From the NCBI RefSeq assembly GCF_020520425.1, contig NC_079487.1, positions 51,374,719 through 51,438,718 of the forward strand: DNA of 64,000 nt, given 5' to 3'. Position numbers and translations under genes: made by a program. Within the stretch, counting starts at the first letter, position 1, and every line of letters starts with the position of its first letter. The notes under the pieces were generated by a model. It saw only the letters and a program-made list of their open reading frames with translations. It searched no databases and had not been told where the DNA came from. This stretch comes from Spinacia oleracea. Its lineage: Eukaryota > Streptophyta > Magnoliopsida > Caryophyllales > Amaranthaceae. Below, piece by piece: positions 6,500-35,940 of the stretch.

Positions 6500-6520
6500 A
6501 AAGTAAAAATAAAATACGCC

Positions 6521-6526
6521 TTTATT
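6521..6526 (-). terminator. Antisense poly(A) signal
   Basis: AATAAA on the minus strand about 100 bases beyond the antisense reading frame's stop, in a T-rich stretch. Confidence 0.5.
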
Positions 6527-8478
6527 ATATAATGATAAGAAGGAAAACAAAAGTGCTAAGAAGGAAAAAACAAACACAACTGAAATAAATAAAGGGCACC
6601 TACACCCTAGCAAGAATTACATTACTCTAGTTCTTCCGGATCATCAAATAAAGTCTTGTAGAGGGCAATGTTCGCAGGGTCCACCCCCACAGATTTCTGC
6701 GCTGCCCCTATATCAATCTCCATAAGAACCGGCTCCTGGACACTAACTTCCAAAGATGCCAAGGCTTCAGAAACATTCTCAGTTTGAACAGCTATAGCCC
6801 GCTCAGCCTCAAGGGCACAGACAATGGTGGGGGAAGGATTATCGACATCAACTGGATTAGTCACTGTTTCTACTAGCGGCTGAGCCTTCCTAACCCATAC
6901 GTTGTTCCGGCGACGATCTCCGCGAGAGCTTGCATTTCTATTAGCAACAGCAGGCCCCTTCATGTTAGGCATCTTCTTAGGCCTAGAACTGGAACGAGGA
7001 GGAACTTCCTTTCGCTTTCGATCAGGACGAGCTTTCACAGTCTTAATACCATGGGTGCGAGGATTGGCAGAATCACGACCCTCATATCTAACGCGAATAC
7101 GAGGTATCAAAAGCTCAGCCGGCTCCCCATTTCGAGCCTCGGTCCTCACAGCCTTATCATCGGAGCTCATCCACAACTTGTAGTTTTCAGAAAGACCCAC
7201 AAAGCCATTTGTAGCTACGGCCCAACGCGGGAGACCATCATAATACTTAGCCCATGCTTGAACCCGTGCTTGTGAAAAGGTCGCTACTTTAGGTGGTACC
7301 GTATCAGAAAAGGGGATAGTCTGCCTTAAACCGTATTAACGCATGACTCGGTAAGGGAAGATATAAATGGGCCGAGATAGCCCCAACAAGGAAACATAAA
7401 TCGATACATCAGAACCCCCCGTCATAGTAGTCAAACCCCACCACGGTACCACCCACTTAATAGAACAGATACCATGAGTAAAAAAGGAGGCCCACTCGGC
7501 CTCGTCCTGGCCTCGGTGCAAATATTTTCGGTTACCCAAGGCTATAGGGCGATAATGTTAAGGATCGGCAGGAATTTCCAAAAGCCTAAGTCGTTCCATG
7601 AGCCAAATCTGCAAAAAACGGGTACGATCAGATCAAAAAAAAAACGGTTCTTGGGGCGCAGTTTCAACGCCCAGGGCCAGGCGCCGAAAATCCTAGCGCC
7701 CAGTCCTGGGCGCTGAAACTCAGCTCCAATGCGGGGCGAATAAAAAATATGCAAAAAAAATGTATATGTGCGCAAGGAAAAGATCGATTACCTGCAGCAA
7801 TAGGGGGCTCCCCTTAAAATATTCAGATTTGGCATCCTTCTTCAGCTCATCCGCACTCAGCAAAGTCTCGGCAACAACCAACGGCATAATAGAATAGCAA
7901 CTTTCCATCTGGCTAATCAAGGGGATCAACCTTATGTCACCGAACTCGCCATTGTTATTCGACAGCAAATAATGATTCAACAAGCAAAATACTAGGCCTA
8001 AAATGATGTTTTACAAGTTTTGCCAAATTAACCTCATCACCTACAACAATCTCAGCAAGCATGTTAGCATCTAGTCCTAGAAAAGCCCCTGTGGTTGTTT
8101 TACCCTCTTCAATGGTGCCAGGAGTGGCAGGAGTAGCATTAGTAGGATAACCAAGGATCGCAGCAAATTCATCTGGCAAAGGACATATTTCGTTGCCCCG
8201 AAAAATAAAAACATGATGATCGGAATCCCAAAAGCTTAGGGCTGCATGCAGAAAGTTGTAATCAATATTAATTTGTTGTAAGCCTAAAAGTGCCTCTAAG
8301 CAGTATTCTTTAAACAAAGCCTTTTCTGTAGGAGTAAGGGCTCGTAGCCAACGCCTAACAGCCCGTTGGAGTGAGAAAGGAGGAATCGACATGACAAAAG
8401 CAAGGAGTAATTAAAACGCAGCAATTACAAGAGAGAAGGAATTTGAGAGTGATGGGAAATAGGGACGTATCTAGCCCC

Positions 8479-8486
8479 TATATATA
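8479..8486 (-). promoter_or_regulatory. Antisense TATA box
   Basis: TATATATA flanked by C/G lies about 87 bases upstream of the antisense PMD start codon, on the minus strand. That is the usual plant distance. It suggests the antisense gene had its own promoter and was not read from the LTR. Confidence 0.55.
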
Positions 8487-8490
8487 GCTG

Positions 8491-9265
8491 AAGACATCAA
8501 GTGACATCCTGATCCCATTCGGAAACGCGCTAAGAAATCCGAAAATCAAAATTCGCCAGGAAAGGACTTTCAGCGCCCATGGCTGGGCGCCGGAATAATT
8601 AACGCCTAGCCTTGGGCGCCGAAAATGCAGCCCAAGGCCCAGATTTCACAAAACGCGGAACAGGAAATGACTTAAAACCGTGTCGCTAGACACGAGGCCC
8701 TATTGCAATTAAGATCAAGCCCAAAAGCACCTTTAGCACCCAAATAGCAAAAATGAATGTTAAAACTTGGTCGAAACTTAGACTTGTCTCAAGGAATATA
8801 TGTGTACACTTTTCAAAACAAATATGAGCAAAATAAATATCAAAGTCATTCTTCGAAACACCAAAAAAAATCGTTAAGTCGTTGGTTTCTCAAAATAAAA
8901 AATGTTTGTCTGTCAAAAGATTAATCCGGGCCATGCCAAACCGGATGTTATGGGAAAATAAACTTTGTCGCCCGAAAACTGAAGTCGCACTCCACGACTT
9001 CACCAAAATAGCACACCACTATAAAGGTCGCTCGCACATACGAGCGTGACCCCAAACATGATTAAAAGACGTTATAAACATCCCTCTCTTGGCGAAAAAT
9101 GACCGACAAGCCCAAGTGCTTGGGGGCTCGCGAAAAAATATATACTCCAACAAAGAGTGCGCGGAGTCAAAATCATATTCCCGGACTACGCTATATACAG
9201 TCCCATGTTTGGATAAACTAAAAAAAACGGACTTCGATCTCACAGCAAAGGTCGCCGTTGATACT
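8491..9265. other. Family C spacer upstream of the antisense gene
   Basis: Contains a hairpin block (8569-8625) and AT-rich DNA. The open frames at 9019-9451 on both strands mirror each other and resemble nothing I know. Confidence 0.5.
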
Positions 9266-9654
9266 TGTACGTGGTCCTCTGATAAAAGACCCAAGTGGTG
9301 GCAAAATCGAGCCATAAAGACTAGCTCAAAAACCACGAAAGAAGATGACCACAAAGCAATGGTCCGTCTAAGCACGTTGTCAACCCATATTCAGGTTACA
9401 ACGAAAATCCGAGCATCCCTCGAAAGAATTCGCTCCTGCGAGAATGAATAAGAAAAGAAATTCTCAAAAGAAATCACAAGAACCAATGAAATAGGGACTT
9501 GCCCACCTCAATTGGGCAAGATCGCGCCACGAACCGCGCGAGTTCCAAATCGAAAAACGAATTCATGGACGTCCACCATCAACGGACAAGGCTCGCCATC
9601 TTCAGCCGGCGGGGTCTGCGTCACTAGCCGCGCAGGTCCTTAGTCGTTGCAGCG

Positions 9655-10125
9655 ATAACTTTTTCTGGTTTTCCGTTTTTCCAAAAAAAGCGATGTGAGT
9701 AGCTTTCCTTTTTTTAAAGGATTGGTTTTCCGTTTTTCCAAAAAAGCGATGTGAGTAGCTTTCTTTTTTTTTTAGGATTGGTTTTCCGTTTTTCCTAAAA
9801 AAGCGATGTGAGTAGCTTTCCTTTTTTAAAGGATTGGTTTTCCGTTTTTCCAAAAAAAGCGATGTGAGTAGCTTTCCTTTTTTTAAAGGATTGGTTTTCC
9901 GTTTTTCCAAAAAGGCGATGTGAGTAGCTTTCCCTTTTTTTAAAAGGATTGGTTTTCCGTTTTTCCAAAAAGAACGATGTGAGTAGTTTTCCTTTTTTCC
10001 AAAAATTAAAGGATTGGTTTTCCGTTTTTCCAAAAAAGATCGATGTGAGTAGTTTTCCCTTTTTTCAAAAATTAAAGTATTGGTTATCCGTTTTTCAAAA
10101 AAAGAAAGATGTGCTGGATTTTCCT
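9655..10125 (+). repeat. Tandem repeat of ~60 bp (about eight units)
   Basis: The unit core is ggttttccgtttttccaaaa, followed by gcgatgtgagtagctttcc and a variable T tract. The matching site in the first copy (about 1330-1440) has only about two units. The minus-strand frame with repeating SYSHR / KNGKPI motifs is a by-product. Confidence 0.88.
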
Positions 10126-10539
10126 TCGTTTTACGTCCCATAAAAACAAGGGGGTTTTCTCGTTTAGCTAACCCTGAAAATGAGAATCTTTAAAAATATT
10201 TTTACCTCGTGATTGGGCTTGGCCAGGCCCAATTACACTTCATAGCTTTGATTTCGAAAACATCTGTAGCTACTCCCAATGACAAAGTGAGGGAGTTCCT
10301 ACGCCTCTTTAGATACTTCCAATGACAAAGTGAGGGAGTTTCTATACTATCCGTTGACAAATCCCAATGACACGTGAGGGATATGTCGACACTTCAAATG
10401 ATGACCCTTAAGTCAAATGTTATCACTCGGGGGCTCGTGAGACCCTCGCAAAAGAAGGTCACCATGACTTGTGTGGCGCACTCCGTCTAAAACTTTGACC
10501 ATCGTCTTACTCCAAGACTCAGTAAAAGTGGGGGCTAAC

Positions 10540-11856
10540 TGTAGACACCTACTTTTGTCCCCATTCCCGAAAGGGAAGGTTCGATGATGAGAACATAAAT
10601 CTCCACTTGACAACGCATCTCCTATAAAATAACGAATCTCAATTCCCCTTTTCATTTCACCCTAAACCTGCTATTTATAGAAACCTGCTATTTATGGAAA
10701 CCTGCTAAAAATAGTAACTTCCGTAATGGGTAGTTGTTAAAAGTGGCAAGTCATAAAAGATAGAAACCTGTCAGAATTAGGTGTTGCACTCCAACATAAA
10801 TCCTAAATGAGATAGAAATTGCGAGAGAATCCTATTCCTAATACGATTCGAAAATAAGAGTTACGTATTAATTAAAATCCTAACGAGCCTAGAGTTCGTA
10901 ACGGGCCCAGATGCATTCCATCATAAAATTAATACGCACTAAAAGACTTGATTAAAGTCTCATACACTCCGGATTCTAAGAATCCTAATCTGACAAAGAA
11001 ACGGCGCAGACCCTATTTTCAACGCCTGGCTCTGGGCGCCGAAATCTTCGGCGCCCAGCCCTGGGCGCTGAAATTACCTGGGACGTGTTCTTTCCTAATT
11101 CCTTGTGGATTAGAGTTCTACACTTCTATCTTTCCACGAACTCTTTTCTATAAATAGGGCACTAAGTTCGACGTGAAAAGAACACAACACACAATTATTA
11201 TTCTGAGTATTGACTCCAACTCCTAAGCCTAAGCCTCACGCTGCGAAATTGATCACGCGTTCTGTCGCAATCGATCCATAAATCGAACAGAACGCATCCT
11301 GTCCCGTAACTTGAGATTCGTTAAATAAAAGGAGAAATAGCAAAGTCAAAGTGGTTAGTTTTCTGAGAACCGTGACGCACCTCTCAAGGGTGCGTCGTAA
11401 TGTGTCCCTTTTCAATGATTTAATTGCTTTCCTCGCCCTTTTATGAACTGTTAAACTAATTGAATCTGATTGTTCTATCACGCCTAATAAATATAATATT
11501 TTTGGGAAATTGGATTATCATGCTAGGTCCCTTAATACAATCTAAATCAGATAATCGCGCTCGATTTAGTATTATATGTTGCATATTGTTAAAATCAACT
11601 CAGATTAGTTTAATAGTTAACGCATGTCCCTTCAATTATTTATGCTGAGCTAGTAAGGATATCCTGCCTCTAGAGTTATCGACGAGCGAGTACTCCTCTC
11701 GGTAGTTACAGACCCCCGAACCCTCAATCTCTACCCTGCGGGTGTACATTGAGAGATCCTCACACCAGGGATCACAAGGGAACCTACGGCCGTCGTGGTC
11801 ACACCCACGAGGGACGAGGTCACGCATTAGACTCGTGCTTTTTCGACCCCCTCACA
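10540..11856 (+). repeat. 3' LTR of family C
   Basis: Starts TGTAGACACC after the purine tract gtgggggctaac and ends CCCTCACA; followed by TTAAT, the probable target duplication. TATAAATA at 11149-11156; hairpin block at 11021-11078. Confidence 0.88.
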
Positions 11857-11861
11857 TTAAT

Positions 11862-13419
11862 CATTGGTGTTCTACTAGAACGAGGAGACCAAAGGCAAAA
11901 CAAGGAGCAACTATATAAACCCCAACACACCCTAGTCCCAAAGAATCTGACCAGTTCCTAGAAGTGCAATTACTATCAGTTTATAATTTTGCAAGCTGAA
12001 ATGACCAAGATCCCACGACTGCCACGTCTTATGTCCGTGGAGATTTCTCCATTCAATTTCAACCTCAACTATGTATATCTCATGCCATAATTAACTAAAA
12101 TGCAAACATGTTTAATCAGAAAATAAAACTGGAAGAAGCATAGATCAATATAAATAAAAGAACAACATGATCCCTATTTTGTAGAGACCGATGTTACTCA
12201 GACTGAGTAGTAGGTGCCTGAGATTGGTACATGTCCAAGAGACTAGGCTATTTTATTTCAGTAATAGAATTCCATGTTTTAGCAGAAGATCCAACACGAG
12301 TGCTTGAAGTTAGAATAGCATAGGCACAATTCACAAACACAGTTTCAAGATCCAGAAGCATAAAAGCAAAAGGCAAATATCTAAAAATCGTGATCGCTAC
12401 AGGCCAATGATAGCAATAAATCAGAGTCCTTGAAATACAGACACTTTCTACTTACATTAACTCGTTCCACTCTCCGCATGTCATCTTCAAGCAAAGATAG
12501 TTGTGCAGCAGAAGACCAATGGATACAATCAACTGGGGTGTAAATCAGCAACCTTAATCGATGAACCAACTGCAAACAACATTTCAACCCCACTTTTCAG
12601 CTCATAAAACCAACTGCAATCAGAAATCGAGAGCTCGCTGAAGTTGGCACTGCAAGATCATCCTGAACCAAGTCAAGCAACTACTGACTAGAATTTACCA
12701 AGGGGTGTGGTATCTATGCATCGTCATCATGATCATAGGATTTTGCCTGATTCCTCCTCCATCCAAATTAAGATTCAAGAGAACTCCTCCTTATAGGAAT
12801 ACATCAAGAAACCAAGAAACAAAGCAGTAAAGAGCCAACCATTGACATCAGCATTACACCAAGACAATGAACTACCTACACTATCAACTGGAAGAATAAT
12901 GATCAGCAGGTCCTAATCATCATTTTCAATTCAAATTTTGTTTACTAAAATATTAAAATCCTTAAATTAAGTAATCAAATCGCTGATTAAGACACTGAAA
13001 CACAGAATTCCAGAAACCCTAACTTCAACAATTAAAATCGCAAATAATTGAATAAATCGGACAAATTGAAACAAAATCAAATAATGGAATACGTACCTGG
13101 CGAATTGAAAGAAGAAAATTGTAAAGGTACAGGAATTGGAGAAATCGGAGATGAACCAACCCCAATTTTAGCAAACAAAATTGCAATAACTTAAAATGAA
13201 AGAGCAAACAAATCGGAAATAGTAGAAAATAAAACATTTATAAACCCAAATTCACTTACTTTCACGAAAAAATGATGAATGAGAGAAGATGCGAATGTAA
13301 GAAGTACAAAGCGATGAACTGGATGAACGTGAATCGTAGAGGAGAGGGGATTTGCAGGAGGAGAGAGAAAACGGGGGAAGAGAGAGAAACGAAAACTGAA
13401 AATCGGGTTGTGGGGGGAG
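11862..13419 (-). other. Fragment of a host locus with CT-rich leader, minus strand
   Basis: Read on the minus strand, the right end (13415-13265) is a pyrimidine-rich leader typical of plant 5' UTRs, ending at a good donor (gtgaaa|gtaagtg at about 13260). Further on, an exon-like segment with LLEDDMRRVERVN ends at another consensus donor (gtaagtaga at about 12455). I do not recognise the product. A transcribed but non-coding locus is possible. The locus is cut on its 3' side by the Gypsy insertion at 11857 and on its 5' side by the Copia insertion at 13420, so it can hardly be expressed normally. Confidence 0.4.
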
Positions 13420-14816
13420 TGAAGGAAATAATGCCCTTGGTCCAAGTATGCATATAATATTAAGTCTAATAAATGCGGTTCAGTATTAATTAACAAGTTA
13501 ATAATTCAGTGAGATCAAGTGAGCTGAATGCCTAGCTAGAGGCCGCTTCAGTTCAAGTGGAATTAATAATATTAATCCACAGCTTACTCTTGACTGAACC
13601 CGTAGGGTCACACAAATAGTACGTAAACGGATCAAGTATTTAATGGCATTAAATACTCCATCTATGGATATTCGGAATCGACGGATCTTGGTTTCAGTGG
13701 GAGCTAAGATCGTCAAAGGCAAGCAAATGAATACTCCGGAAATGATGATATTGCCGGAAACGGAAATATGGATCGTATCGGAAATATAAATATTATCCAA
13801 GTCGTAGATGTTGCTGGAAACGGAAACATGGTACGTATCGGAAAATATTAATGGAAATGGAAATATTGCCGGAATCGGAAATATTGCCGGAAACGAAAAT
13901 ATTGTCAGAATCGGAAATATTATCGGAATCGGAAAATAATTCCGGAAACGGAAATATTAAATATTTGTTCGAAACGGAAATTAATTCCGGAATCGGAAAT
14001 ATTAAATATTGTTCGTATCGGAAATGAATTCCGGAACCGGGAATTTAATCGGAAGCGCATCGTACGAATTAGCATCGGACGAGGCTTGCTAGACGAAGGC
14101 CCAGCACGAAGCCAGGCCCGCACCCAGCAAGCCAAGCGCCCAAACACGAAGCTACCACAGCCTCGCCAGGCCCAGCGCAAGGCCAGGCCCAGCAAGGCCA
14201 TAGGCGCGCGCGGGCTTATGCTCGTGGGCTGCGAGGCAGCGCCCGCTCGTGTGGGCCGCAAGGCCTGCGCGGGTGCGTGTGTTCCTCGTGGTCGTGCAAC
14301 ACTCGTGTTCGTAACGAATCCTAATCCTATTGGAATTCGTGCATTGATTAAATCCTAATCCTAAAAGATTAAATTTATTATTTAGAGTTTTAATAGGATT
14401 CTAATTAATAAATCCATATCCTAGTAGGATTATAGTTCCTTACCATAAACTCTATAAATAGGTGCCTAGGGTCACATATTTACATCGAGATTTGAAGTAT
14501 TCAAAAGGTAAGATTTTCAAGCAAAAATCAGCCAAACACTTGCAACCCAAATAGCCGAAAATCCTAGTAACCTTAAGGGCGATTCTAGTTGGTCAAGCTT
14601 AAGGCGGATCCGGACGTGCTGTGGACTATCTACGGAGGGACGACACTTGGAGTCCTAAAGACTTGTTCTTGTTCGGTTCAGGCGCAGCTAGGGAGGGCAC
14701 GCTACAAAGTGTATGCATCTGAATTATGCTAAATGATTATGTGTAAATAATATGTTTCCTGGCTTTATGGTTTTTCCGCATGATTTATGTTTATTCATAT
14801 GTATCTTAACCTAACA
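13420..14816 (+). repeat. 5' LTR of family B
   Basis: Starts TGAAGGAAAT and ends CCTAACA. U3 has an array of short GGAAATATT/CCGGAA repeats (13725-14045), a GC-rich block (14085-14290) and TATAAATA at 14453-14460. Confidence 0.9.
13725..14045 (+). repeat. Short-repeat array in U3 of family B
   Basis: Imperfect copies of cggaatcggaaatattgcc and close variants follow one another. The same array is in the 3' LTR (22610-22925) and, reversed, at 1-280. It could be an enhancer-like array, but that is inference. Confidence 0.75.
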
Positions 14817-14817
14817 G

Positions 14818-14831
14818 TGGTATCACGAGCC
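14818..14831 (+). promoter_or_regulatory. Primer binding site
   Basis: TGGTATCACGAGCC one base after the LTR end; close to the initiator tRNA-Met sites of Copia elements. Confidence 0.7.
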
Positions 14832-15529
14832 TCTTATTATTTTCATAATCTAAATTGCATGAACATGGTTAAATTTTACAAATTTGCAAAGAATTAAAGG
14901 GGTGATTAATTTTCGTAATTAATTGCAAATTGCGTTTATTTAATTATATGTACGCAGTTTTTCGGCAGTTTCTTCGTTACTCATCCAAATCGAGTGATTT
15001 TTGTGTCAATTTCGCATGTAAAAGGCATTCTAAAATTTTGACAAAAATAGTATTTTTCGGCCGAACCCAGAATTCCCAAATTCGAAGCTTAACTATGACT
15101 TTTCGGAGGTTTTAGTTTTTCGAACGCAAAAGTTTGTAAATTTAAGATGTTAAATTAAGTATTTGCGATTCTTGTTGATAAATCTTGAGTTTTTGATTGA
15201 CCTACTATATATGTTTAACAATTATGAATGCCTAGACTTGTTAATTATACAACCTAATTTGTAATTATGATTAATTTGTTGAAATTCGAATAATTTAGGA
15301 TTGATTTGTTTTTCATAATTAATTAATAATTTAATTAGGTATCCATGATTAAAATCCACCATAAAAATTGTTAATTTATGTTAAATTTTTAATTTTTATG
15401 ACCTAGATTTGAATCCATGTTAATCGGAAATTAATTGATTAATAAATTTTCGATTTTTCGCCCTAAAATTATGAAATTAATATGTTTTATTAATTTGTCA
15501 TTAATTTTAAATTAAAAATTTTAAATTTT

Positions 15530-16050
15530 TATGAAAACGCCCATAAATGTTGCACGCACAAAGCAATGGAAGCTACGTGTTACCCTTAAGGGGTGTTGTA
15601 TAGTGCGGGCACGAGACGACGAGCAAGGGAGCTCGTCGCCCGTGCGGTACGAATGCAGCGAGCAACGAGCGTGGCATGCGCAAGGCTATGCGCCTAAGGG
15701 GCGTGTGCTACGCGTGTGGGCGATGGGGCAACGGGCGAGCAAGTGCAGCGAGCAAGGCAAGCACGCGTGGGCAGCGATGGATGCTGCGCCACACATGCGT
15801 TGCCTCGCTCAGCAGCACGCCAAGGCAGTAGCCAAGGCAGCGACAAGCGCAGCACAACGTGCACGCGGACAGCGTTGGCTGGCCTGTCCAACGAGCGTTG
15901 CCCAGCAGCGCGCCAAGGCGATGGGCGAGTGGGCTGCGCGCAAGCGTGGCTCGCTGGGCCTGACGCATTGGTGCGTTGTTGCTTGGGCTTTGCGGTACGA
16001 TCAATCGAGTGACAAGGGGTTTGTTGCTTGTTGGACTTGATGAGGTATGG
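15530..16050 (+). repeat. GC-rich low-complexity block in the Copia interior
   Basis: A sudden GC-rich island (many gcg, gca, agc) in AT-rich DNA. Open frames occur on both strands with Ala/Arg/Gln-rich translations and no family likeness, so I regard none as a gene. Confidence 0.65.
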
Positions 16051-18379
16051 GCGCAAGCCCATGGCCTTGTCTTGACACGATTGGTGGGTCTTAAATTTTA
16101 ATTTAGGAATTTCAGTTCGGAAATAATTTTAATTAATTTTAAAATTAATAATTTAAATTGTTTTCTCGGATTTAATTTTGAATATTATAATTAATATAAA
16201 TTTTAATTTATACTAATTATTTTACTAAAATTAAACCTTGAATTAATTTAAATTCATTTAAATCAACTGAAAATAAATTAAATAAAATGGATTCAATTAT
16301 AAATTTATATGAGCTTTAAATTTTAATTAAATTTATATGTTTTCGGTTAGACTAGAAATACATTTTTATGTTTAAAATTAGTAAAGCATATGAATTTATT
16401 GGTTTAAGTGGGAGAATTTTAGTCATAAACTCTTGATTAGGTCTACAAATCCTTTAAGGTTAAACAACTTGATTAGAATTAATAAGGAATGAATAATTGG
16501 TAGATTATTGGTGCCCTTAATTAATTGCTGCAAATATTTATGTGATGCATACAATGTGTTTTAACTAACCAATTATGTGGGCCATTCATGATAATGAATG
16601 GATGAATGGTATATATTGTATATGTACTGTTTTGCAGGTTATGAAGTGACTAGTATAGCCCAAATAGGATAGAAAATATGGTTTGCGTACCATTAATTTG
16701 AATGTAATTGGTCTAAAGCACCAAATTTATTTTTCAATTCAAATATGGTCTGCGTACCATCAAATAGCTGTAATTAGTTTAATTATAGCTTATCCTATTT
16801 GAAGAAAATGGCGCCTTCCAATCCATTTTCAAGACGGACTTTGAAGTCGAAGCTTCAAGATGAAGTCGGGCCATACTAGATCACATTTATCTTATGCATG
16901 CTTTAATTTATTTATTGCTTTTAAATATGTCTTAAATATGCATGAGATCGAAGCTTGATTATGTTTCATGATTAAGGATTTTAGTTCACTTAAAATCTAA
17001 CCAACATAGTAAGAGCCTTAAGTTCCAAACTTAAAAAAAATTGAGTTAAAAGGTGCCATGCCAAAATAATACTTACTTGGATATCCTTTACATCGATCTT
17101 AGTAATAGTTTTCCGCCATAGCGAGGTGTTACTTATCGATACTAAAGGGGTAAGGTACGCAAATAATTGTGAGTACATGTTAGTTTTGGTGAAACTCAAC
17201 GATATAAGTAAGGAGTCCTTTTATGTCGTGGCAAAATCGATAGGTTTACCTAATAAGTTCTTAGACGTACCTATCAACCAAGAGTAGTTTCTAGACTATT
17301 GGCAAAAGGCTTTTGCTTACCTAAAATATTTTAGAATTGAGTCAAATACATAATGTGCTTAATTCTTCAATGATTTTAGGGTCTTGGAATCATTATTCAC
17401 ACCTGCCGGAACAATAAATTCGAATAAAATGCTAATAACTTGTTTAAATTGCATGAATGCTTTAATTTTCAAAGTTATTACTCATGATAAATGTTTAGAC
17501 TTTGCATGCTTCAATGTATGTTTTAATTATTGTTTATAATTAAATATCTTGCAATGCAGTAAACCCTTTTAGAAAGGTAATAGTAAATTTCCTCGATTGG
17601 TAGAGAATCCAAGAACGATTCACGAAAATGAGAGAAAATGAGCAATTTAAAATGTACGTTTCTTTTAGCGACTTTTATGGTTGTTTTCGATATCAAAATC
17701 GAATGGCAAACCAATTGGTGCTTGTGAATTCAAAATACACTGTAGTTTTGAGATCATAAAGCATTGAGTTTAAACACTCAGCTTTACTAATGTTTAACAA
17801 CCTAATATCTTTGTCCATTTAATTCTCGAATGAGTCTAGTCCCTAGACATTCGAATAGATCGATGCTTAGAGAACTTTAGAAGCTTCTGGTAAGATCATC
17901 TAGTTGAAATAGAATATTCAACATAAATTAAATGGTAAGAACCTTGTTGGAGTGACATTGGACATGTCTAAACAATGTATAAAAGTCAACACTAAAGAAT
18001 TCAATTCTTAAGACTATAAGAAAGGGTACAAGAAATAGGAAAATAAGGAACAAATGAAAGAAATTTTACGATTTCGTTTCTACCTATAAGTTTATGTTTA
18101 AAGAGAAGTGACCTAGCAATCAAACTTCCTTGGTATCATATACCGCTTGAGGTTCTTACTTCGGTAATAACTCAAATAATGGAAGCTAGGATACACTACT
18201 GACCTACAAGTGGGAAATGAAGCAAGGCAATGCTACATTAGTTGTAGGGTCATCTAGTTTGTTTTAAGTCCGTTCAAAGGCTGGAACTTAATGGCTATTT
18301 TGTTCCATAATCAGCATACCTAAATTTCTGCTTCAAACACAGAAAGACTCACATTCAGAAGAACGAAAACAATGCTTGT

Positions 18380-21240: not shown

Positions 21241-22289
21241 ACAACTCTTGTAGCTGGACAGACTAGATCACAAAATAAACATACTCAAAAGATCTTATCA
21301 TCATATCTCGAAGAACATTCAAGAAAAGGATATCAAGATTGGCAAAGCATGATAACTAAACCTATGCAACAAGTGAGAAGCAACACTCACATTGTAGCAC
21401 TGGAAATCAAGCATAGCTTTGAAATTCCATGAACTGTTTTAAAAATGGGTTCGAGGCCCATGGTTGTAAAACATTGGGGTTGAACATTTATCATATATGA
21501 AATGTATTTTCATATTCCATTTAATCTTGGTTTAGTATTAAATGATGAGTCCCTTCAATTTGACGATATATTCAAGATAGACTGCCAGGACCAGTCCTGT
21601 GACTAAGAAATGTCTATCAAGTGAACTTGAATGTCAAAAATTGAAAATGGTCCCTGGTCGGAGTTTTCTATAAAGATGGACGCATAGAAAACGTTAGACG
21701 ACTAGAATGCAAGATGACTAGTAGTTATGTTTCTTGAACTATGTGGACATGGCAATGTCGCAATCATTTGCATAGATACATACTTTGGGAAGATTAGTAT
21801 CGGACAGACCTATGAAACTTTACTGTAAGAGATGAAAATCTATCATAAGTAAATTTCATTAAAATTATTAGACACTAAATCCTCAATACCTGAGTGATTT
21901 GAGATTACTTGCTTGAGAACTGGTTACTTTGACGTTGACCAACCGCCGCACCGTAAAAGGAGGCTATAAAGGCAACGTTCAGGTAATCACCTATCAAACG
22001 AAGTCTAATCTCAAGATCGCAAGATTGGGATTGTCCTCCCATAAATCGGGATGAGATGCTTAAAAGTTGTACAAGGCCACTCGGAGAGCTAGAAACTGTA
22101 AAATGCATGGTCGTGCTCGGATGAATCATAGGCTATGATTATATGTTTATTTGATCAGTTGAACTCTGAAACCGAGAAACACCTCTGGACATAATAAGGA
22201 TGACAACTCTTACCTTATGTTCAAGAGCAAGCATCGAGCGACAAAGGAATTAGTAAATGCACACTTGTCCCTAAGGACAAGTGGGAGAC

Positions 22290-23675
22290 TGAAGGAAATA
22301 ATGCCCTTGGTCCAAGTATGCATATAATATTAAGTCTAATAAATGAGGTTCAGTATTAATTAACAAGTTAATAATTCAGTGAGATCAAGTGAGCTGAATG
22401 CCTAGCTAGAGGCCGCTTCAGTTCAAGTGGAATTAATAATATTAATCCACAGCTTACTCTTGACTGAACCCGTAGGGTCACACAAATAGTACGTAAACGG
22501 ATCAAGTATTTAATGGCATTAAATACTCCATCTATGGATATTCGGAATCGACGGATCTTGGTTTCAGTGGGAGCTAAGATCGTCAAAGGAAAGCAAATGA
22601 ATACTCCGGAAATGATGATATTGCCGGAAACGGAAATATGGATCGTATCGGAAATATAAATATTATCCAAGTCGTAGATGTTGCTGGAAACGGAAACATG
22701 GTACGTATCGGAAAATATTAATGGAAATGGAAATGGAAATATTGCCGGAATCGGAAATATTGCCGGAAACGGAAATATTGTTAGAATCGGAAATATTATC
22801 GGAATCGGAAAATAATTCCGGAAACGGAAATATTAAATATTTGTTCGAAACGGAAATTAATTCCGGAATCGGAAATATTAAATATTGTTCGTATAGGAAA
22901 TGAATTCCGGAACCGGGAATTTAATCGGAAGCGCATCGTACGAATTAACATCGGACGAGGCTTGCTAGACGGAGGCCCATCACGAAGCCAGGCCCGCGCC
23001 CAGCAAGCCAAGCGCCCAAACACGGAGCTGCCACAGCCTCGCCAGGCCCAGCAAGGCCATAGGCGCGCGCGGGCTTATGCTCGTGGGCTGCGAGGCAGCG
23101 CCCGCTCGTGTGGGCCGCAAGGCCTGCGAGGGTGCGTGCGTTCCTCGTGGTCGTGCAACACTCGTGTTCGTAAAGAATCCTAATCCTATTGGAATTCGTG
23201 CATTGATTAAATCCTAATCTTAAAAGATTAAATTTATTATTTAGAGTTCTAATAGGATTCTAATTAATAAATCCATATCCTAGTAGGATTATAATTCCTT
23301 TCCATAAACTCTATAAATAGGTGTCTAGGGTCACATATTTACATCGAGATTTGAAGTATTCAAAAGGTAAGATTTTCAAGCAAAAATCAGCCAAACACTT
23401 GCAACCCAAATAGCCGAAAATCCTAGTAACCTTAAGGGCGATTCTAGTTGGTCAAGCTTAAGGCGGATCCGGACGTGCTGTGGACTATCTACGGAGGGAC
23501 GACACTTGGAGTCCTAAAGACTTATTCTTGTTCGGTTCGGGCGCAGCTAGGGAGGGCACGCTACAAAGTGTATGCATCTTAATTATGCTATATGATTATG
23601 TGTAAATAATATGTTTCCTGGCTTTATGGTTTTTCCGCATGATTTATGTTTATTCATATGTATCATAACCTAATA
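22290..23675 (+). repeat. 3' LTR of family B
   Basis: Same structure as the 5' LTR; TATAAATA at 23312-23319. Followed by the target duplication GGGAG. Confidence 0.9.
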
Positions 23676-23680
23676 GGGAG

Positions 23681-23819: not shown

Positions 23820-23824
23820 TCCTG

Positions 23825-23916
<92 letters not shown>

Positions 23917-24567: not shown

Positions 24568-24739
24568 TTATAAAATAAACAAATAATAATAATCTTATCA
24601 TTAAAATATTAACATTTCCAAGTCAAAAATAAAATTCTCATTAATCAAATTAAACGTTGAAATTTGGATTTAAAATAATTTTACGCTAATAAAAATAATG
24701 AAGCATAATTAATCGAGTTTTAAAAATTCGGGGTATTAC
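24568..24739 (+). repeat. Possible 3' end of a TGTAACACCC-type LTR
   Basis: The segment ends ttcggggtattaca, like the end of the solo LTR at 55120-57979. The rest of the LTR is not visible; the Helitron-like element abuts it. Confidence 0.4.
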
Positions 24740-25882: not shown

Positions 25883-26244
25883 TTATTGATGAATAATACA
25901 AATGACATGACATAATCTTAAATAAACATACTTTCAAGATATACATTTAACTTCAATTTTTATTCATTTAAACTCTCATGTTATTCATTTAACTTCAAAT
26001 TTTAATCATTTAACATCAAATATAATTCATCTAAATTCGTTTTTTCGTTTCTTTTTTTATTTTCACATTTTTTTAGTTTCCTTACCGATTTAATTACGAT
26101 AATACATGTTATTTTCACTATTCACTAGGCCTAGCCAAAAGTGTCAGATCCGGGTTTTCCAATTTCAGATCGGAGGTTTTCGGATCGAATTTGGATCTCT
26201 ACTTCAAAATTTTCGGATATCTAATATATCTGAAAATCCGATTT

Positions 26245-26279
<35 letters not shown>

Positions 26280-26818
26280 AAATCGGATATTTCATATATA
26301 AAAGAAAACCTTAAACTATTGTTGTGTCAGTTCACTCACTCACTCTCCTCTCCCGCAACCAACAACCTCCCTTTCCTCACTCTCCTCTATCCCGTAGCCA
26401 TGCTCCACTATCTAGTAGTAGCATATTCGAAAATATTTGATTGTTTTTTGACAGCTACTTGTTATTTTAAGTAGGAATTCTAGTCTAGATAAGATATGAT
26501 ATCCGACGACCAGATCCGAAAGTTCGAATATCTGAAAAACTGAATATCCGATCGGGTTAGGATCATGTTCAGATCGAATTTGAAGAGCGGTTTTAACATG
26601 TGAGAACGGCTTTAACATGACGAAGATATACGAACGACATTAATTTGTGCAAATAGGTTGATTATACCGAGATGAATTGATAGGAGAATTAAGTACATGT
26701 AGTGTTCTAATCACAAATACATAACTTATCATATGATCGATTTGATAACATTTGAAATTCTATTTTAGTTTTTAAAATGGGATAACTATCTTTTTCTCTT
26801 ATTATCTTTACTGGGTTT
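25883..26818. other. AT-rich intergenic stretch
   Basis: Contains near-repeats of attcatttaacttcaaat (25940-26035), an AT tract near 26250, and dispersed ttcggatatc/gatccg words (26140-26580) that suggest an old repeat of unknown class. No gene. Confidence 0.45.
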
Positions 26819-26827
26819 ATTATCTTT

Positions 26828-28702
26828 TTCAAACTTTTATGTAAAGCGGTCTTACAGAAAAACCGCCTTGATGGCACTGGAAATGTCACGTAATTGCCGA
26901 GTCATGGTGACATCAGCAATATACATACCTATTTTCCCTTCATTTTCCAAACCCTAATTCATTCTCTCCCTCCTAAACACTCTACCCCTTTCTCTCCCCT
27001 AAACACTCTACCCCTTTCTCTCCCCTAAACACTCTGCCACAATTCGGTGGCGTGAGGTTATTTTCGACAATGTTGAAGCTGGAAGGTGATTGTTTCGTCG
27101 AGGAAGGCGGCGTGTTGTCGCTAAATGAGGTAACGATTCCATCTCTCTCCTCCTTTCTTTAATTCGTTTAAGTTTTTGAATTTTAATTTCTTTTTAGGTT
27201 TTTGATTTTTCAATTCTTATGAAGAATCGGAGGTTTCAGTAATGGATGAGGGAGAATCAGAGTTGTAGAAGAGGTGGAGGAAGATATCGGCGGTGGCGAG
27301 AGAACAAAGCAACCTCCAGGTTAGTTTATTTTAAAAGTTTTATTTGTGCGTTCTTGTTAATTCGATTGCAGTTTTGAAATCTTCTTCTACACTTATTAAT
27401 GGTGTTGTTAATTCATTTTAAACGTTCAGATCGGTGGCAGATTGATGGCGGATTGATGGAGGATTGGTGGAAACAAGGATTTCTTTAACAGGAGGTTGTG
27501 ATGGAATCGCTGCAAACAAGGATTATGTTGTTGTCGACTTGTTGCTGGTTTTTTAATTTTGTTGTAGTTTTAGATAAGAATTGTAATGTTTTACTTATGA
27601 ATAATCCGGGTTTAGTTAAAAATAAAATATTTTACTTATACGGAGTATTGGTTTGCATTTAAGTAATTTTTAGTTAGTTATATTTTTCTTGTGTTTAGTT
27701 AAGAATAATTATGTTTTAGTTTTAGTTATAATTGTGAAATAATGGTTCTTAGTGGAATTGCTGGATTGATTTTCTATGTTTTAGTTATGAATTTTTAAGT
27801 TTTAGTTGCGATTTTCTTGGTTTTAGTTAAGTTCTTTTGAGCTTTAGTTACATATTTTTGAGTTTCAATACATGGCTTTAGTTACGATTTTCCGAGCTTT
27901 AGTTATGATTTCACGAGTTTAAGTTACGATTATCTTGGTTTTAGTTAAGATTTTTTGAGTTTTAGTTATGTATATTTTTGAGTTTCAGATACCGAATATC
28001 AGAGTTTTAGTTAAGATACAAAATTTTAGACATTGAAACCAATTAGTTAAGCAATTGGATCAATTAGTTAAAAAATGAAACTAATAAGTTAAGTTTCAGA
28101 ATCAATTAATGTAACCTATTAGTTAAACAATGCAACCAATTAGTGAAGCACTTGAACTAATTAAGTTAACCACTGAAACCAATTAGTTAAGTTTGAAATT
28201 CAATTAGTTAAGCAACGAAATCAATTAGTTAAGCACCGAATCAATTAGTTAAGCATTGAAATCAATTAGTTAGTTAAGCATTGAAATCAATTAGTTAAGA
28301 TTTTATGAGTTTTAGTTAATAATAAGTTTGTTTAAAAATAATAACTATTCGACTCATAAGTTTAACTATTTGTTTTTATACCTTAACTATTTTGTTATTC
28401 AATTAGTTATGATTTTATTACTTTTAGTTATGTTTTACACTAGTTTAGTTAGTGCAAAAAAAAATTGAAAATTTTAATTTTCGAATAAAAAAAATTGAAT
28501 ATTTTTTTCGGAAAAAAAAAGAAAAATTTAAGCCTGAAATCCAATTAGTTAAGTCTGAAGACCAATTAGTTAAGCCTGAAAAAAATCGAATTTTTTTTTA
28601 AAAAAAAAAGATCCGGAAAAAAGTTACATGATGACGTCAGCACATGCGCCACATGGCTGCCAATGGGGCTGCCAACAAGGTGGTCTTACACAAAAGTTTC
28701 TC
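26828..28702. mobile_element. MULE-like non-autonomous DNA transposon
   Basis: Flanked by a 9-bp direct repeat ATTATCTTT (26819-26827 and 28703-28711). The ends are imperfect inverted repeats: near 26831-26874 aaactttt..gtaa, a short insert, then accgccttgatggca; near 28671-28700 tgccaacaaggtggtctta..aaaagttt. The left part has a CT-rich leader and a short exon-like start (ATG at 27071, MLKLEGDCFVEEGG, then a donor gtaacg), perhaps a captured gene start that I do not recognise. The rest is simple repeat. Confidence 0.6.
27720..28320. repeat. Imperfect short tandem repeats (gttttagttatg and caattagttaagca types)
   Basis: The first half is built of ~25-bp words around gagttttagttatgatt. The second half uses ~20-bp words around aatcaattagttaagcattg, at least ten copies. 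They make up much of the MULE-like element's interior. Confidence 0.85.
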
Positions 28703-28738
28703 ATTATCTTTTTCTGAGTCTTTACTTATCGAATTTTA

Positions 28739-29284
28739 TTGTTTAATAAATTTGAAATAATATTAGTATTTAATGAGGTCCTGTCCCCAGTTGGTAGTGT
28801 TAAAATTAACACGGATGCGCATGTGGTCGAACATTGTAGCACGGGCCTTGGAGTGGTGATACGTGATGATACGGGACAATTGTTGGCTGTAGCAGTAAGG
28901 AGAGGACACGCCACTACACCAGAATTTGCGAAGGCTATGGCGGTTTGGTTTGGCTTACAACTTGCTAGGAGGTTAGGCTATGATCGGGTCTGTGTAGAGA
29001 GTGATGCTATAAATGTGGTCGAAGCTACGAAGCATGGTAAAGGCGATCTAACACCTATCCATCTAATATACGAAGACATTATAATTGATATCTTGCTTTT
29101 TGATAATTTTGATATTTCTCATGTGAAAGAGGCATGTAACACGGTAGCTCTTAGAGGCAAGGTGGGATACTAGTGATAACTCTGAGTATGTATGTATTGG
29201 TTCCTTCCCTCAGAGTATTACTATGCCGAAAATCGACTTGATTTAATAAAATGTCCGAACTATCTTCCCCTCAAAAAAAAAAAA
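28739..29284 (+). pseudogene. LINE 3' fragment with RNase H-like domain and poly(A)
   Basis: A 144-codon frame resembles the RVT_3 RNase H-like domain found at the end of plant L1 LINEs: GSVKINTDAH, LGVVIRDDTGQLLAVA, EFAKAMAVWFGLQLA, VCVESDAINVVEA. The usual REANxxAH signature is altered (KEACNTVAL). About 80 bases after the stop, AATAAA-like sequence and a run of A (~29270-29282) end the element. No upstream RT is present, so it is 5'-truncated, as is usual for LINEs. A free-standing RNase H-like host gene is less likely. No clear target duplication. Confidence 0.65.
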
Positions 29285-29356
29285 TAAGATCCTAAATGTG
29301 ATACTCCGAAAAAAAAAACTCATATTTACATAGTTAGAATAGGACAATAGTCAATG

Positions 29357-29475
29357 TGTATCGCTATTCGACGTCCGCATACGCTAAAATCGCCCGCAGC
29401 ATTTAAGGTGAAAGTACAATGTTACCCTTATAAAAGAGAACCCCACTTCTTCACTTTTCACCTCAAGTTTTCACC
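29357..29475 (+). repeat. Left terminal inverted repeat of the MULE
   Basis: Pairs with 37272-37385. Identity is patchy, highest in the outer 40 bases and the ttacccttataaaa block. Confidence 0.8.
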
Positions 29476-29725
29476 TCAACTTTTCACTCTCTACTTTCCG
29501 GCAGCCCTCCCCACCCCGGTTAAATTTTCCGGCCGCCCCACATATTTTTTCCGGCAGCCCCACTTAAACTTTTCTGGCATTCCTAATTCTTCTTTGCTCC
29601 AACCACCATTTTGCCCACCGCCACCCTCCACCCTCCACCCTCCACCGGTCCACCGCCACCTACCACCGACTTGAGCTGACCACCTCATGGACGACTTCGC
29701 TCCTTCAACGTCGTAGTCGTCGTTC

Positions 29726-32700
29726 ATGATGGACGCATCGTCGCCGGAGGTTTGAAATTAATTTTTTTTTTTTTAATTTTTGGGCCACCCAGAGATGGCG
29801 GCCCAAACCATGTACGGGCCGCCCAGAGATGGCGGTCGGAACCATGTCACAGCCGCCATCTCTGAGCGGCCCGTACATGGTTTGGGCCGCCATCTCTGGG
29901 CGGCCGGAACCATGTCTTGTCCGCCCGGAGATGGCGGCCCAAACCATGTACGGGCCGCCCAGAGATGGCGGCCGTGACATGGTTTGGGCCGCCATCTCTG
30001 GGGGGGCCCGTACATGGTTTGGGCCGCCATCTCTGGGGGGCCCGTACATGGTTTGGGCCGCCATCTCTTGGCGGCCCAAATAATCTGAACTTTTTTTTTT
30101 TGAATTTTTTCGGAATTGTAGGCTACTTAAAAAAATAAATTGTTATAATTATTTTTTAAAAAAATTATTTATTTATTTATTAATGTAGATTAAAAAATAA
30201 TGTGATTTTTTATATAATTCCTTTATAATTTATATAATGTCTTAATGAAAAGTGAATAAGTATAATTTTTTATATTTTATATAATGTCTTAATGAAAAAT
30301 GAATAATTATAATTTGAAAGCATATATTTGTTTATTTAATGTTATCAAATGATTTAAATAAGTTCAAAACATATATTTGTTCTTATCGTCGAGTTAAAAA
30401 ATAAGTTACGAACAACGTTGTAATTATATAATTTAATTGGTGATTTCGTTATTTAAATGGCATGGAATTTGTCAAATTATGAATAGGATGTTTAAAAAGT
30501 AAATTCAATGTACGCTATATACTATAAATTTTTAGCGTATGCATTAAGTAATAAAATAATATTGAAAATATTTTACTATAAATATTATTTTAGCTTTGCG
30601 TTAATTTAAATTAGAGAAATATAAATATCAATGTTGTGCTTTTTTAATAGGTTCCACTTCCGGATTATGGTGGTGACGGTGTTGACTATAGTGATCGATT
30701 TGTGATAAATGAAATTTTTGATGGTTTTGAGAACGCGGCGAATTGGGCAAGGCAAGTTGCTATCGGATTAGGATTCATCTTGATAGGTAGCTCGTACAAA
30801 AAGACGTGAAAGGATGGTCGAATGTACCAGTACTTGAAATGTGGCCGTGGAAGGAGAGAAAACAATTCTAGGGATCCAGAGATCGCAAAACGTCCGAACA
30901 CAAAAGGCAAGGCATGTGGTTGTCGGTTTACGATTAACTGTGAACAACTACGAGTAGAAGAAAATAATTGGGTTATTGAGTTGCTTCATGATCGTGGCAC
31001 ACATAACCACGAACTGATTGTGTACCCGGAGGGTCACCGCGGTGTCAGCGGTCTGAGTGAAGGCGCGAAGGAAGTTATTCGTGAGATGAAAGATGCACAA
31101 GCTAAGCCAAAACACATTATGGTGGCCATTAAGAACAAGTATCCAGATGACCATCCCAACATGAGGCACATTTACAACTTCAAAGATAAGATCAGGCGAG
31201 AAGGTTCAGAAGGAAGAAACGTAGCTAAGCAGATGTTGCATCTAGCGAGAGAGCACAACTACATAAACTGGGTCTCATGTAGTGACCGTACGAGAAAAGT
31301 CATAAACCGCGCATTCTTAGCTCACCCTGCAATGGTGGAGGTGTTACGCACATATCCACTTGTTATTGGTCTGGATTCGACGTACAAGACAAATAGATAT
31401 GGATTTCCATTCTTGGAGATTGTTGGCGTGACACCAACGAATCAGAATTTCCTCATCGCCTACGCATTTATGAAGGACGAGACAGCAATGAGCTACCGTT
31501 GGGTGTTACAGAAGTTGAAGTTGCTCCTCAGGGAGGCCATCATTCCCACGGCTATCCTTACGGATAAAGAGGGTGGTCTTATGAGACCGGTCGCTGAGGT
31601 ATTCCCACATTCTCGACATTTGCTATGTACTTGGCATATCAACCATGACGTGGAGGCCCGTGTATCATTTTTGTGCAACAAGAACAAGGATGCTGGTGCG
31701 GCGTTCAAGAATGGAGTATGGAAAAGAATCATGGAGGCTTTGACCGAGGAAGAATATGAACGTGCAGTTGTAGTCATGGAAGATCGTTATGGAAGATGGC
31801 CGGCAGTCCTCGATTATGTGCATAAAACGTGGCTTAATGATCATCGGAAGAAATTCGTCTTAGCTTGGACGAATGAGGTCCTTCACTTTGGCAACATAAG
31901 GACTTGTAGGGTTGAGAGTCAACACTCCGTCATTAAGAGTTGGCTTGGAAGTTCTCAAGGGTCGTTGGATACTGTTTTTAGAAAAGTGCATGCGTCGATC
32001 AATAACCAAGTTACAGAGATTAAAAATGGTTTGGAGGGTTCGAGGCGGCGACACGGTGTTCTGTTCAAGCATTATCTATACCAACACCTTATTGGTCGTG
32101 TTTCCCACCATGCTTTGGAACTTATTCTGGATGAACATACGAGGATGCGAAATTTAAGTACCGAGGTGTACGAGAGGTGTGGTTGTGCTATGTTAACGAC
32201 TCATGGACTCCCTTGTGCTTGCAACATATTTACGGCGCTCCAAGGTGGAGTTGGGATATACATTGACCTTGTTCATCCATTTTGGAGGACCTTGGAGATT
32301 GGAGAAGGGGCGGAGATTCCAGAGGTTGTGGCGGAGTCCGCACAAGTTACTGAGCTGTTTCGATCCCTCGTCGACGATGTATTAGCTAGAGATATTGCCG
32401 TTATTCGAGATATTTCAAGGATCGTTCACAATGAGTTACATCTAGAGCATGCAGGTTATGAGGAACCGGAGCCCAACTTAACTAGGAGAGGGAGGCCAAG
32501 GAGACAAAGAAACTCAACTACAAGGAATCTGAGCTTGATCGAACATGTGCGGAATACGGGCCCTCGTACGATTTCTGATCAAGGGGCTTCGTCATCGGGA
32601 AACCCACAATCAAGATCTTCCCTAGGTACAAGTTATTTTATTACATATATTTATTTCATATATTTATTTCTTATTGTGGGGAAACTAATCGTTTTTTTCA

Positions 32701-33349
32701 TTTTACAGGGAGTTACATGAGCATTGATCTAATTCCACCTCGTTTCAAGGAATCCTTACCGGACTTCATGTTGCAGTATATTAGAGGATATCGTGATGTT
32801 ATACCTAATGGTAACTGCGGATTTCGATGTGCAGCAGAGTTCTTTTTAGGTGATCAAGAACGTTATGGCGAGATTCTTTCAACGGTTGTGGGAGAGATTA
32901 AAAAGCTTGATCAATACAAGAGAGTTTATCTTCCGGAAACTATAAGTAATGCCTCGTATCGAATAGATTGGAGAGGTGGAATGTGTGGACAAGAACATTG
33001 GATGATTACTGATCCAGATTTATGGCCGATAGCCACACACTTCAATGCGGTTGTGGTCATCTTTGCAATCGGTGGTGAATCCAGTTTAATCCCATCCGCG
33101 ACCATTCTTCCGTTGGAAAACCGATATGAAGCAACTAGGACGACGAAGGAGATTGTTTTGGCATTTGTAAATAAGTGTCACTACATTCTTTTGGATATGG
33201 CGCCCGATTGTCCATTACCATCAATACCCCACCGTTGGAGAGCATTAGCAGATTATGGCGTTCGTGAATGGGAATCAAGATATGAGACTAGGATTCAAGC
33301 TTGGACTCGATATTCCGACGAGTTTAATTTTAGGATGGGCAGATATTAG
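29726..33349 (+). CDS. MULE transposase with C-terminal OTU cysteine protease-like domain
   Basis: Probable exons 29726-29749 (MMDASSPE), 30651-32625 and 32709-33349, all with GT/AG ends and matching phases. Residue numbers count from the ATG at 30822. A FAR1-type zinc DNA-binding part is followed by the MULE catalytic core with the DDE triad D185 (IGLDSTYK), D248 (ILTDKEGG) and E365 (CRVESQHS), the CTWHI motif at 269-273 and a SWIM-like zinc site (CGC..HGLPCAC, 453-467). The second large exon encodes an OTU-like fold: PNGNCGFRCAAEFF with the expected Cys, and CHYILLDM with the likely catalytic His. The Asp normally before Gly-Asn-Cys is Asn here. One in-frame stop (TGA, 30807-30809) interrupts the FAR1 part; starting at 30822 would lose that end. 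It would cut and paste the element; the OTU part may remove ubiquitin or a similar tag, which is inference from family. Confidence 0.85.
29770..30080. repeat. Left subterminal GC palindrome array
   Basis: Nine copies of GCCGCCATCTCTGGGCGGC or its reverse, in the order 2 forward, 2 reverse, 2 forward, 3 reverse, spaced 30-40 bases and joined by ccgtacatggtttg-like links. It falls in the likely first intron of the transposase gene. It yields misleading open frames in several phases. Confidence 0.9.
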
Positions 33350-33661
33350 TGCAATCATTGTAATTGATTTAAGTATGGTCAAATATTAGTGCAATCATTG
33401 TAATTGATATCAAGTGCGGATGTACTATTAATATTACTACTTATATTTTTCGGCGTTATTTATAAACATTTAGTCATTTTTTCTGAGCCTAATTTCATAA
33501 CATGTTAATTAAAATAAAACCATTGTCTTAAAAGTTCTATAAATTGAAATTAGATATAAAGTCCATAAAATGTAATCAAATAAATTGTCCATAAAACGAA
33601 ATTACATACAAATCCATAAAGTGTCCACGATATGAAATAAATAACAAAGTCTAAAACGAAA

Positions 33662-35940
33662 TTACATATAAAATCCATAAAATGTCCACAAAATGAAATC
33701 AATAACAAAGTCTATAGAAACTCTCATACGATCACATGCTATCACAAACAACCTTCCACTCTTGAACTCTGTAGCGGCTAATGTAGTCGGGTGACTCGGA
33801 TCATTCTTCTCTTGTAATAACGCATGGATCACTTGCTCATATCGGCCAACCCACTGCAATGCAATATGAATTAAATTAAAATGAAATCGACAATAAAATA
33901 ACTAAATGGTTAACAACAATTAAACGAGCATTTGTACTTACATATTCGGTATGAGTCCGATCATGTATAGGCGTAACCACCGGAACTTCACCAAAACCAG
34001 GAGTAATGTGTGGATGAGACCATTCGAGGAACCAACTCATGTACTGCTCATCAAACGCGTAAGGCACACCTTCAGGAACAGGCGCCAAAGACGAGAGAAT
34101 CAGGCAAGAGGAGTAACCGGCTGCAAAACGATCCCACCACTTTGATACATATGACAAGTCGTGGAAATCCACCTCATAATGCCTAAAGTTAGGTGGCCTA
34201 TACGCTTTGCCAATGAACAGGACATCCTGCGGAATACGCTGCATATACCCCAACTGCCTAGTAACACGATCAAGGTTATACATCTCACCGATATCACGAT
34301 AACATATTGGCCCCATGTAAACAGTTCTCGGACACTGAACAGCGGGGTCGTCGCAAAATGGTGTCCACACAACCTAAGTTAAAACACAAATTATTATTAT
34401 AACTATGTTAAAAACACAACAAAACCAAAGATAAAACAAATGAATTTCACAATACCTCCTCTGGTGTCAATCTATCAAGCCTAGCACGAAACGAAACCAA
34501 TCTATACTTGTCCTTACTCTCAGCAGCATAAACCCAACTCGATGCTAGAGGTTCATCAGGTCCTACATCTTTTCGGACCGAGCGAGGTCGGAAACAAGGA
34601 AAATGCTCATAAATCCACGCCTGAAGAAGCATCAAACAACCTCCGATACCTCGTGACTCTGACCGTGAAGCTACACCTAGCTGGCGGTAAAGAAAATCTA
34701 AACAAGCCGATCCCCAAGAATATTTCGGTACATCATCCAGTCTATCGAGATCAAGCAAGATCTTTGAAAAAAGCCGACTCTTAGTCTTATCAGTAAACAA
34801 ACAACATCCAATAGTAGATATCAACCACCCAGTCACTTAGCACGTTTCATCCCTACCCGACGCTGAACATTTTCCCAAAATAGTGGAAATCTTCACACCG
34901 CCTTTCACACAATGGGCCCCTCGAAGGATCTCCTCTCTAACCGAAAGCAACTCACCAACCCGACTAATCAAGGACCTCTCACGGTCTGTCTCAGAGCAAC
35001 TCAATGCACGTCCATCAATAGGGATCCCCAGTATCGCCTGAACGTCATGCAACATGATCGTCATCTCTCCAAATGGAAGGTGAAAAGTATTCGTATCCGG
35101 TTGCCACCTCTCCACGAAAGCAGATATCAAAGGAGCATCAATGTGGGGAGCCATGATCATAGGCAAATGACTCACCGAAGAACGAAGAACCTTCTCTTTG
35201 ACTTCACAACTCATGCGATAAAACCAGTCATTAATCCGCTTACAAACCAAAAATCTACACTGGCAATGAAGATTACCTCGATCTAAAGTGACATCCCATA
35301 GACATGCAGCAACGTAACGTGAGCCGGATAGCTAGGAATCAGGCTACCAAGTCTAGGACCTCCGCCCATTGGGCCAGTAAAGACAGAATCGACTCTAGCC
35401 CTAACCATGCGATCTCGACGGCTATGCCCGGTGGTCGCCGAACTCCCCTCAGAGCTACGAACAAATTTACCCTCACGTCTCTGAATAATAACAGGAGCCG
35501 AAGAGCGATTGGGTGGAACAACACCCGTGACGACCCTCTCCTCAGCGCGCGTGACCCTGTCCTCTGCACGCGTGTCCCCCTCCTCGGTGCGCGTGTCCCT
35601 CCCCTTGGCGTCCTCATCCTCGCACGAATCATCGTCAAAGTCCCCATCATCCTCACAATATCCATCATCCTCAAACCTATCATCATCCTCCTGCTGAGTG
35701 GGGTCAGCCCTCGATTGACGTGACGAAGGACCCATCGGACGAGGTGGCGAGTAACCCAATGAATGGTGAGGCGAGTAAATCATCTGCGTCTGTGGCGAAT
35801 TGGATCCCAAACCACCTCTCTCCCTTCTAACCGAAGCATTTTCAAAACGACTTCTCGTATGTCTGGCTCCAGATCCGTCAACGACAACATCCACATCATA
35901 ACTAACGTCTCCCTGAATGAGTTCCGAAAATCTCTATTAT
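33662..35940 (-). pseudogene. Antisense PMD (MAIN/MAIL-like) gene carried by the MULE
   Basis: Exons on the minus strand: about 35940-34456, 34373-33942 and 33853-33662, with clean GT/AG introns in phase 0. The N-terminal region is disordered and acidic (DDDRFEDDGYCEDDGDFDDD). The PMD core follows: PHIDAPLISAFVERWQPDTN, FHLPFGEMTIMLHDVQAILG, DVPKYSWGSACLDFLYRQL, LMLLQAWIYEHFPCF. It ends in a Trp-rich part (YVSKWWDRF). PMD proteins are nuclear and of plant or transposon origin. The copy has one in-frame stop (34837-34839, TAA) and an apparent frameshift near 35330 where the N-terminal and core frames meet, so it is nearly but not fully intact. Convergent with the transposase gene; the stops are 312 bases apart. 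Confidence 0.8.

Follow-up and report, generated by a model that had tools for sequence, protein, structure and literature searches.

Do two unrelated classes of plant transposon, lying close together in one genome, each carry a plant mobile domain (PMD) gene on the strand opposite to their own genes? The question is raised by a stretch of 64,000 nucleotides from Spinacia oleracea (RefSeq assembly GCF_020520425.1, contig NC_079487.1, positions 51,374,719 to 51,438,718 of the forward strand), hereafter the window, for which an earlier note claimed such a gene both in a Gypsy element (6500-8490) and in a Mutator-like element (MULE; 33662-35940). The best overall explanation of the window, and a likely one, is a pair of unrelated, decayed insertions about 17.5 kb apart: a MULE with an antisense PMD gene and a long terminal repeat (LTR) retroelement with an antisense DUF7745 frame. 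Feature coordinates are collected in Table 1.

The claim that the MULE holds a PMD gene opposite its own genes is borne out. The region scores 156.8 bits against PF10536, whose curated cut-off is 34.9 bits, and two single minus-strand frames pass the cut-off by themselves (34447-34836, E 4.9e-23, 82.3 bits; 34837-35250, E 4.1e-19, 69.4 bits), with a third (33876-34370, E 5.9e-05, 22.8 bits) lying under it. On the plus strand, the frame at 30822-32720 matches the MULE transposase domain PF10551 in Pfam and contains the motif CGCAMLTTHGLPCAC, which we take to be of SWIM type.

A MULE is recognised by a transposase domain of this kind and, by the definition in PMC6446971, by terminal inverted repeats (TIRs) and a target duplication of 8-11 bp. 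The interval originally given for the element covers its PMD part only. The MULE is 8.0 kb long and was placed at about 29356-37384 because its diverged TIRs (29365-29465 and 37276-37376, 79.6% over 103 columns) sit just inside the two target-site duplication copies, ATAGTCAAT and CTAGTTAAT. Dense GC-rich repeats, both inverted and tandem, occur close to the two ends (29780-30080 and 36750-36940) and could form hairpins. An Rfam scan of the window returned no RNA family at gathering score; nine matches at 29796-30131, all on the GC-rich inverted repeats and each under its own gathering score, were taken as chance.

The MULE would consist of two tail-to-tail genes. In the sense gene the transposase is joined to an OTU-like part; the antisense PMD gene has a separate predicted intron and therefore probably a separate promoter. 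The PMD reading frame is interrupted by an in-frame stop codon (34837-34839) and probably also by a frameshift (near 35290-35300). Two stops are counted inside the PF10536 match, one of which (34447-34449) falls within the predicted intron. The broken frame fits a reading in which a piece of a host gene, picked up by chance, or an independent insertion brought PMD into a single MULE copy, without its being a feature of the family. This is improbable, since PMC6446971 lists several plant MULE clades in which the majority of members have PMD, with an antisense placement in some to most of these members, and since the gene order and intron in the window appear organised.

An intact PMD protein would most likely help the MULE as an accessory factor in the nucleus, for instance one that counteracts host silencing in which the related MAIN/MAIL proteins take part; this favoured reading is itself clearly less likely than not. 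The copy in the window is no longer able to do so, because its PMD frame is interrupted, and probably the transposase as well. The idea that PMD cargo is of general use to transposons, perhaps against silencing, is not new, the anti-silencing suggestion being already published (PMC5418596), and neither a broken PMD copy nor a partial DUF7745 frame bears on usefulness. The antisense genes could instead act through RNA, with antisense and sense transcripts forming double-stranded RNA that tunes silencing of the element. Such a role is discussed for antisense open reading frames (ORFs) of retrotransposons in PMC7264820 and would suit the antisense placement of the genes in both elements; it is nevertheless a quite unlikely account here, as the encoded protein families are recognisable and the MULE PMD frames, from 33876 onward, are clear of the sense gene, which ends at 33349, so that any overlap would need read-through.

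The sense gene itself appears, from predicted splice sites, to join the transposase to an OTU-protease-like part, and the predicted splicing yields a single open frame of 814 residues. The second exon contains two motifs, DVIPNGNCGFR and CHYILLD, that resemble those of OTU proteases. Its assignment as an OTU protease is inferred and was not confirmed by profile, PDB sequence or structure: no Pfam OTU match was found in the frames scanned, the top PDB match (OTUD1, E 0.14) was not significant and the single-sequence fold was useless (pLDDT 32.3). Immediately before 30810 lies a frame that resembles an earlier exon but ends in a stop codon, so that the MULE transposase is probably broken too.

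For the retroelement, the claim fared differently. The LTR pair expected of a Ty3/Gypsy retrotransposon is present, aligning by blastn at 97.0% over its best 1433 columns and 97.9% over 233; at the LTR starts, 402 columns align at 80.1%. Antisense frames do lie between the LTRs. Their PMD identity did not stand. The only family match of the frame at 7955-8392 is to DUF7745 (PF24924, curated cut-off 26 bits), which it matches as a 145-residue piece covering profile positions 21-75 of 341; a longer stop-masked frame gives E 1.2e-04 (21.7 bits). PF10536 has no match in the two antisense frames at E up to 1, nor in three stop-masked minus-strand frames of 6400-8600, each shortened at its end, at E up to 5. 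On the frames scanned, the retroelement was accordingly rejected as a second PMD carrier at the family level, and with it the claim of two carriers in the window, for which the note itself had named a missing PMD match in either region as a refutation. Its antisense accessory frame would encode part of a DUF7745 protein. The element contains a gag-like remnant with the motif CEFHQGNGHDTE, presumably zinc-knuckle-like, and is best described as a non-autonomous or decayed LTR retroelement that is Tat-like in layout and may belong to the Tat lineage.

A closer relationship between the two antisense genes was considered, in which the DUF7745 gene is a remote PMD homologue and the antisense genes of the two elements belong to a single superfamily; at that level the note would have been right. 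This is compatible with the rest of the explanation of two decayed insertions. A blastp search limited to the window PMD aligns the DUF7745 fragment with it at the equivalent motif (E 0.006). With hhalign, the fragment scores 20.7 against an alignment of nine PMD sequences (eight genic frames and the window PMD); all controls score lower, namely ten shuffles (at most 18.9), the reversed sequence (16.7) and seven control ORFs (at most 19.6). However, the margin is small, the hhalign probability is only 1.05, and the control that comes closest is another frame of that retroelement, its second antisense one. Moreover, none of the eight genic PMD frames matches the fragment by blastp under E 2.4, and the PF10536 profile does not pick it up even with matches up to E 5 allowed. 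The comparison is not significant and no more than suggestive of a distant kinship between DUF7745 and PMD, which makes the homology a tentative possibility, somewhat short of even. In a broader version, which is unlikely, the DUF7745 proteins of LTR retroelements and the PMD proteins of MULEs would make up a single superfamily of accessory proteins that both transposon classes encode antisense and have retained in a shared tail-to-tail arrangement; the MULE would add a transposase-OTU protease fusion and so be equipped with a chromatin factor as well as a deubiquitinase-like factor. Should DUF7745 prove to be a remote PMD, PMD-like genes would reach further in plant transposons than known.

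Genome-wide profile searches place both genes in context. For PF10536, 117 of 4487 candidates were scored, giving 126 matches in the genome, and for DUF7745, 118 of 3501 candidates, giving 112 matches. Among the DUF7745 matches are four long ones, at C1:101805391, C1:51896616, C2:69256947 and C5:19117859. Because matches to both families are this numerous, the nearness of the two elements carries little weight. The MULE match is the only PF10536 match within the window, a silence elsewhere in it that is no proof by itself given the fraction of candidates scored. Two further scored matches start at profile position 7, like that of the window, and end earlier (211 and 156). By best blastp match, the window PMD is 23-25% alike to seven of eight genomic PMD loci and 39.6% alike, over a short stretch, to the other.

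Two further groups of PMD matches were observed. One is a cluster spanning about 2 Mb of a single contig (C4:141705962-143718023), in which many matches have long open frames; the six loci fetched each have one long frame and on that ground look genic. The other comprises 15 near-equal, full-length matches (profile 2-347, 103-111 bits) across C2-C6, with open frames of 561-703 residues and internal stops in one of the 15, which suggests a recently spread PMD-carrying element.

Table 1. Features of the LTR retroelement and the MULE (window coordinates).
Feature	Position	Strand	Basis or remark
5' LTR	~591..3200	+	LTR pair; ends approximate
gag-like remnant	4410..5453	+	CEFHQGNGHDTE motif only; best Pfam E 0.058
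Second antisense frame, retroelement	6622..7200	-	no Pfam family above cut-off
Antisense frame with partial DUF7745 match, not PMD	7955..8392	-	PF24924 E 1.3e-05, 24.9 bits
3' LTR	~9268..11860	+	LTR pair; ends approximate
Left 9-bp target-site duplication	29347..29355	.	ATAGTCAAT; 7/9 bases same as right copy
Whole MULE	~29356..37384	+ (set by transposase)	TIRs and target-site duplication; ends placed by eye from the latter
Left GC-rich subterminal repeats	29755..30080	.	inverted copies at 36750-36950
Stop codon just upstream of transposase main exon	30807..30809	+	ends preceding frame
MULE transposase main exon	30822..32625	+	PF10551 E 2.2e-24; CGCAMLTTHGLPCAC motif
Predicted GT-AG intron, 83 bp	32626..32708	+	in-frame join of transposase to second exon; splice predicted from sequence
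Second exon, OTU-protease-like by motif	32709..33349	+	DVIPNGNCGFR and CHYILLD motifs
Antisense PMD gene, broken	33876..35933	-	PF10536 matches; stop and probable frameshift
Predicted GT-AG intron of PMD gene	34374..34455	-	sequence only
PMD (PF10536) match	34441..35160	-	156.8 bits, E 2.2e-43, profile 7-243; genome-wide profile search
Right GC-rich subterminal repeats	36750..36950	.	inverted copies of left set
Right target-site duplication	37385..37393	.	CTAGTTAAT; 7/9 bases same as ATAGTCAAT

Neighbouring sequences were also noted. A TOP6A/SPO11-type gene (37400-38860, plus strand, Toprim E 2.6e-68) begins just past the right end of the MULE. Its probable start codon is near 37541, some 160 bp beyond that end, and the MULE therefore sits in the upstream region of the gene. 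Just outside the left end is an RNase H-like (RVT_3) frame (28718-29170, plus strand, E 1.3e-18). A TTTCCG-rich repeat is present in three copies that are 96-97% alike, at 1-591 (minus strand), 13413-14400 (plus strand) and 22283-23259 (plus strand), and two of these lie on either side of the LTR element as inverted copies.

Several observations weigh against the explanation of a MULE with a PMD gene beside a retroelement with a DUF7745 frame. Both antisense genes are predictions from sequence. With TIRs only 80% alike and a duplication matching at 7/9 bases, the ends of the MULE are not certain. The PMD copy that it carries is broken, a pseudogene, and only three other scored PF10536 matches share its profile span (7 to 237, 240 and 246), none of them placed in a MULE. 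In the retroelement, the DUF7745 score falls just under the family cut-off, and the internal pieces scanned, which comprised a subset of the frames, gave no Pfam match to gag, reverse transcriptase, RNase H or integrase; for this last reason the Gypsy label lacks domain support. What the locus adds is a further plant MULE that carries PMD in antisense, joining a published pattern, and a caution that the antisense gene of a neighbouring retroelement fits DUF7745, a poorly known family for whose name the literature search found no text.

That PMD genes are borne by Gypsy elements and MULEs in general is true and not new (PMC5418596, PMC9289625, PMC6446971, PMC6317226). Ikeda 2017 (PMC5418596) describes PMD genes borne by Gypsy elements as well as PMD-MULE fusions, PMD is reported as the commonest non-canonical domain among the Gypsy consensuses of one study (PMC9289625), and the PMD genes of eudicots are given as mostly genic PMD-C (PMC7156037). 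Antisense extra ORFs of retrotransposons are reviewed in PMC7264820. In the literature searched, at the level of titles and abstracts, no description was found of an element pairing a transposase-OTU gene with a PMD gene in antisense, and a term search of PMC8599713 gave no OTU or PMD terms.

The closest counterparts of the retroelement in layout are the Ogre and Retand elements of the Tat group (PMC6317226, PMC11963269). Shared with these is an extra ORF antisense to gag-pol and ahead of the 3' LTR, as stated for Retand, whose antisense Transposase_28 ORFs are treated in PMC11963269, and large LTRs like those in the window are also reported for non-chromoviruses (PMC6317226, PMC11963269). The extra ORF differs: according to PMC6317226, 57% of Ogre elements have a PMD and 23% of Retand elements a Transposase_28, whereas in the window it is DUF7745, in an element with no pol found in the scanned pieces.

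For the MULE, the PMD-C fusions of Ikeda 2017 (PMC5418596) have in common the presence of PMD in a MULE. In those, reported from several grasses and Amborella, PMD is fused to the transposase, whereas the MULE of the window has a separate antisense PMD gene. Also close are the clades MUDR, MUDRAVI2, MDR, MULE-Monocots and MULE-Solanaceae_1 of PMC6446971, which tabulates PMD for several plant MULE clades as present in most members. These clades resemble the window MULE in having a transposase with SWIM, for which the window has a putative motif, a 9-bp target duplication, which in the window is diverged, and a PMD on the opposite strand. The predicted splice of the transposase to the OTU-like part has no counterpart in the clade descriptions of that source. 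As given there, PMD is antisense 'sometimes' in MULE-Monocots and MDR, 'often' in MUDRAVI2 and in most MUDR; in MULE-Solanaceae_1 an ORF listed as unknown accompanies an antisense PMD gene, as in the MULE of the window.

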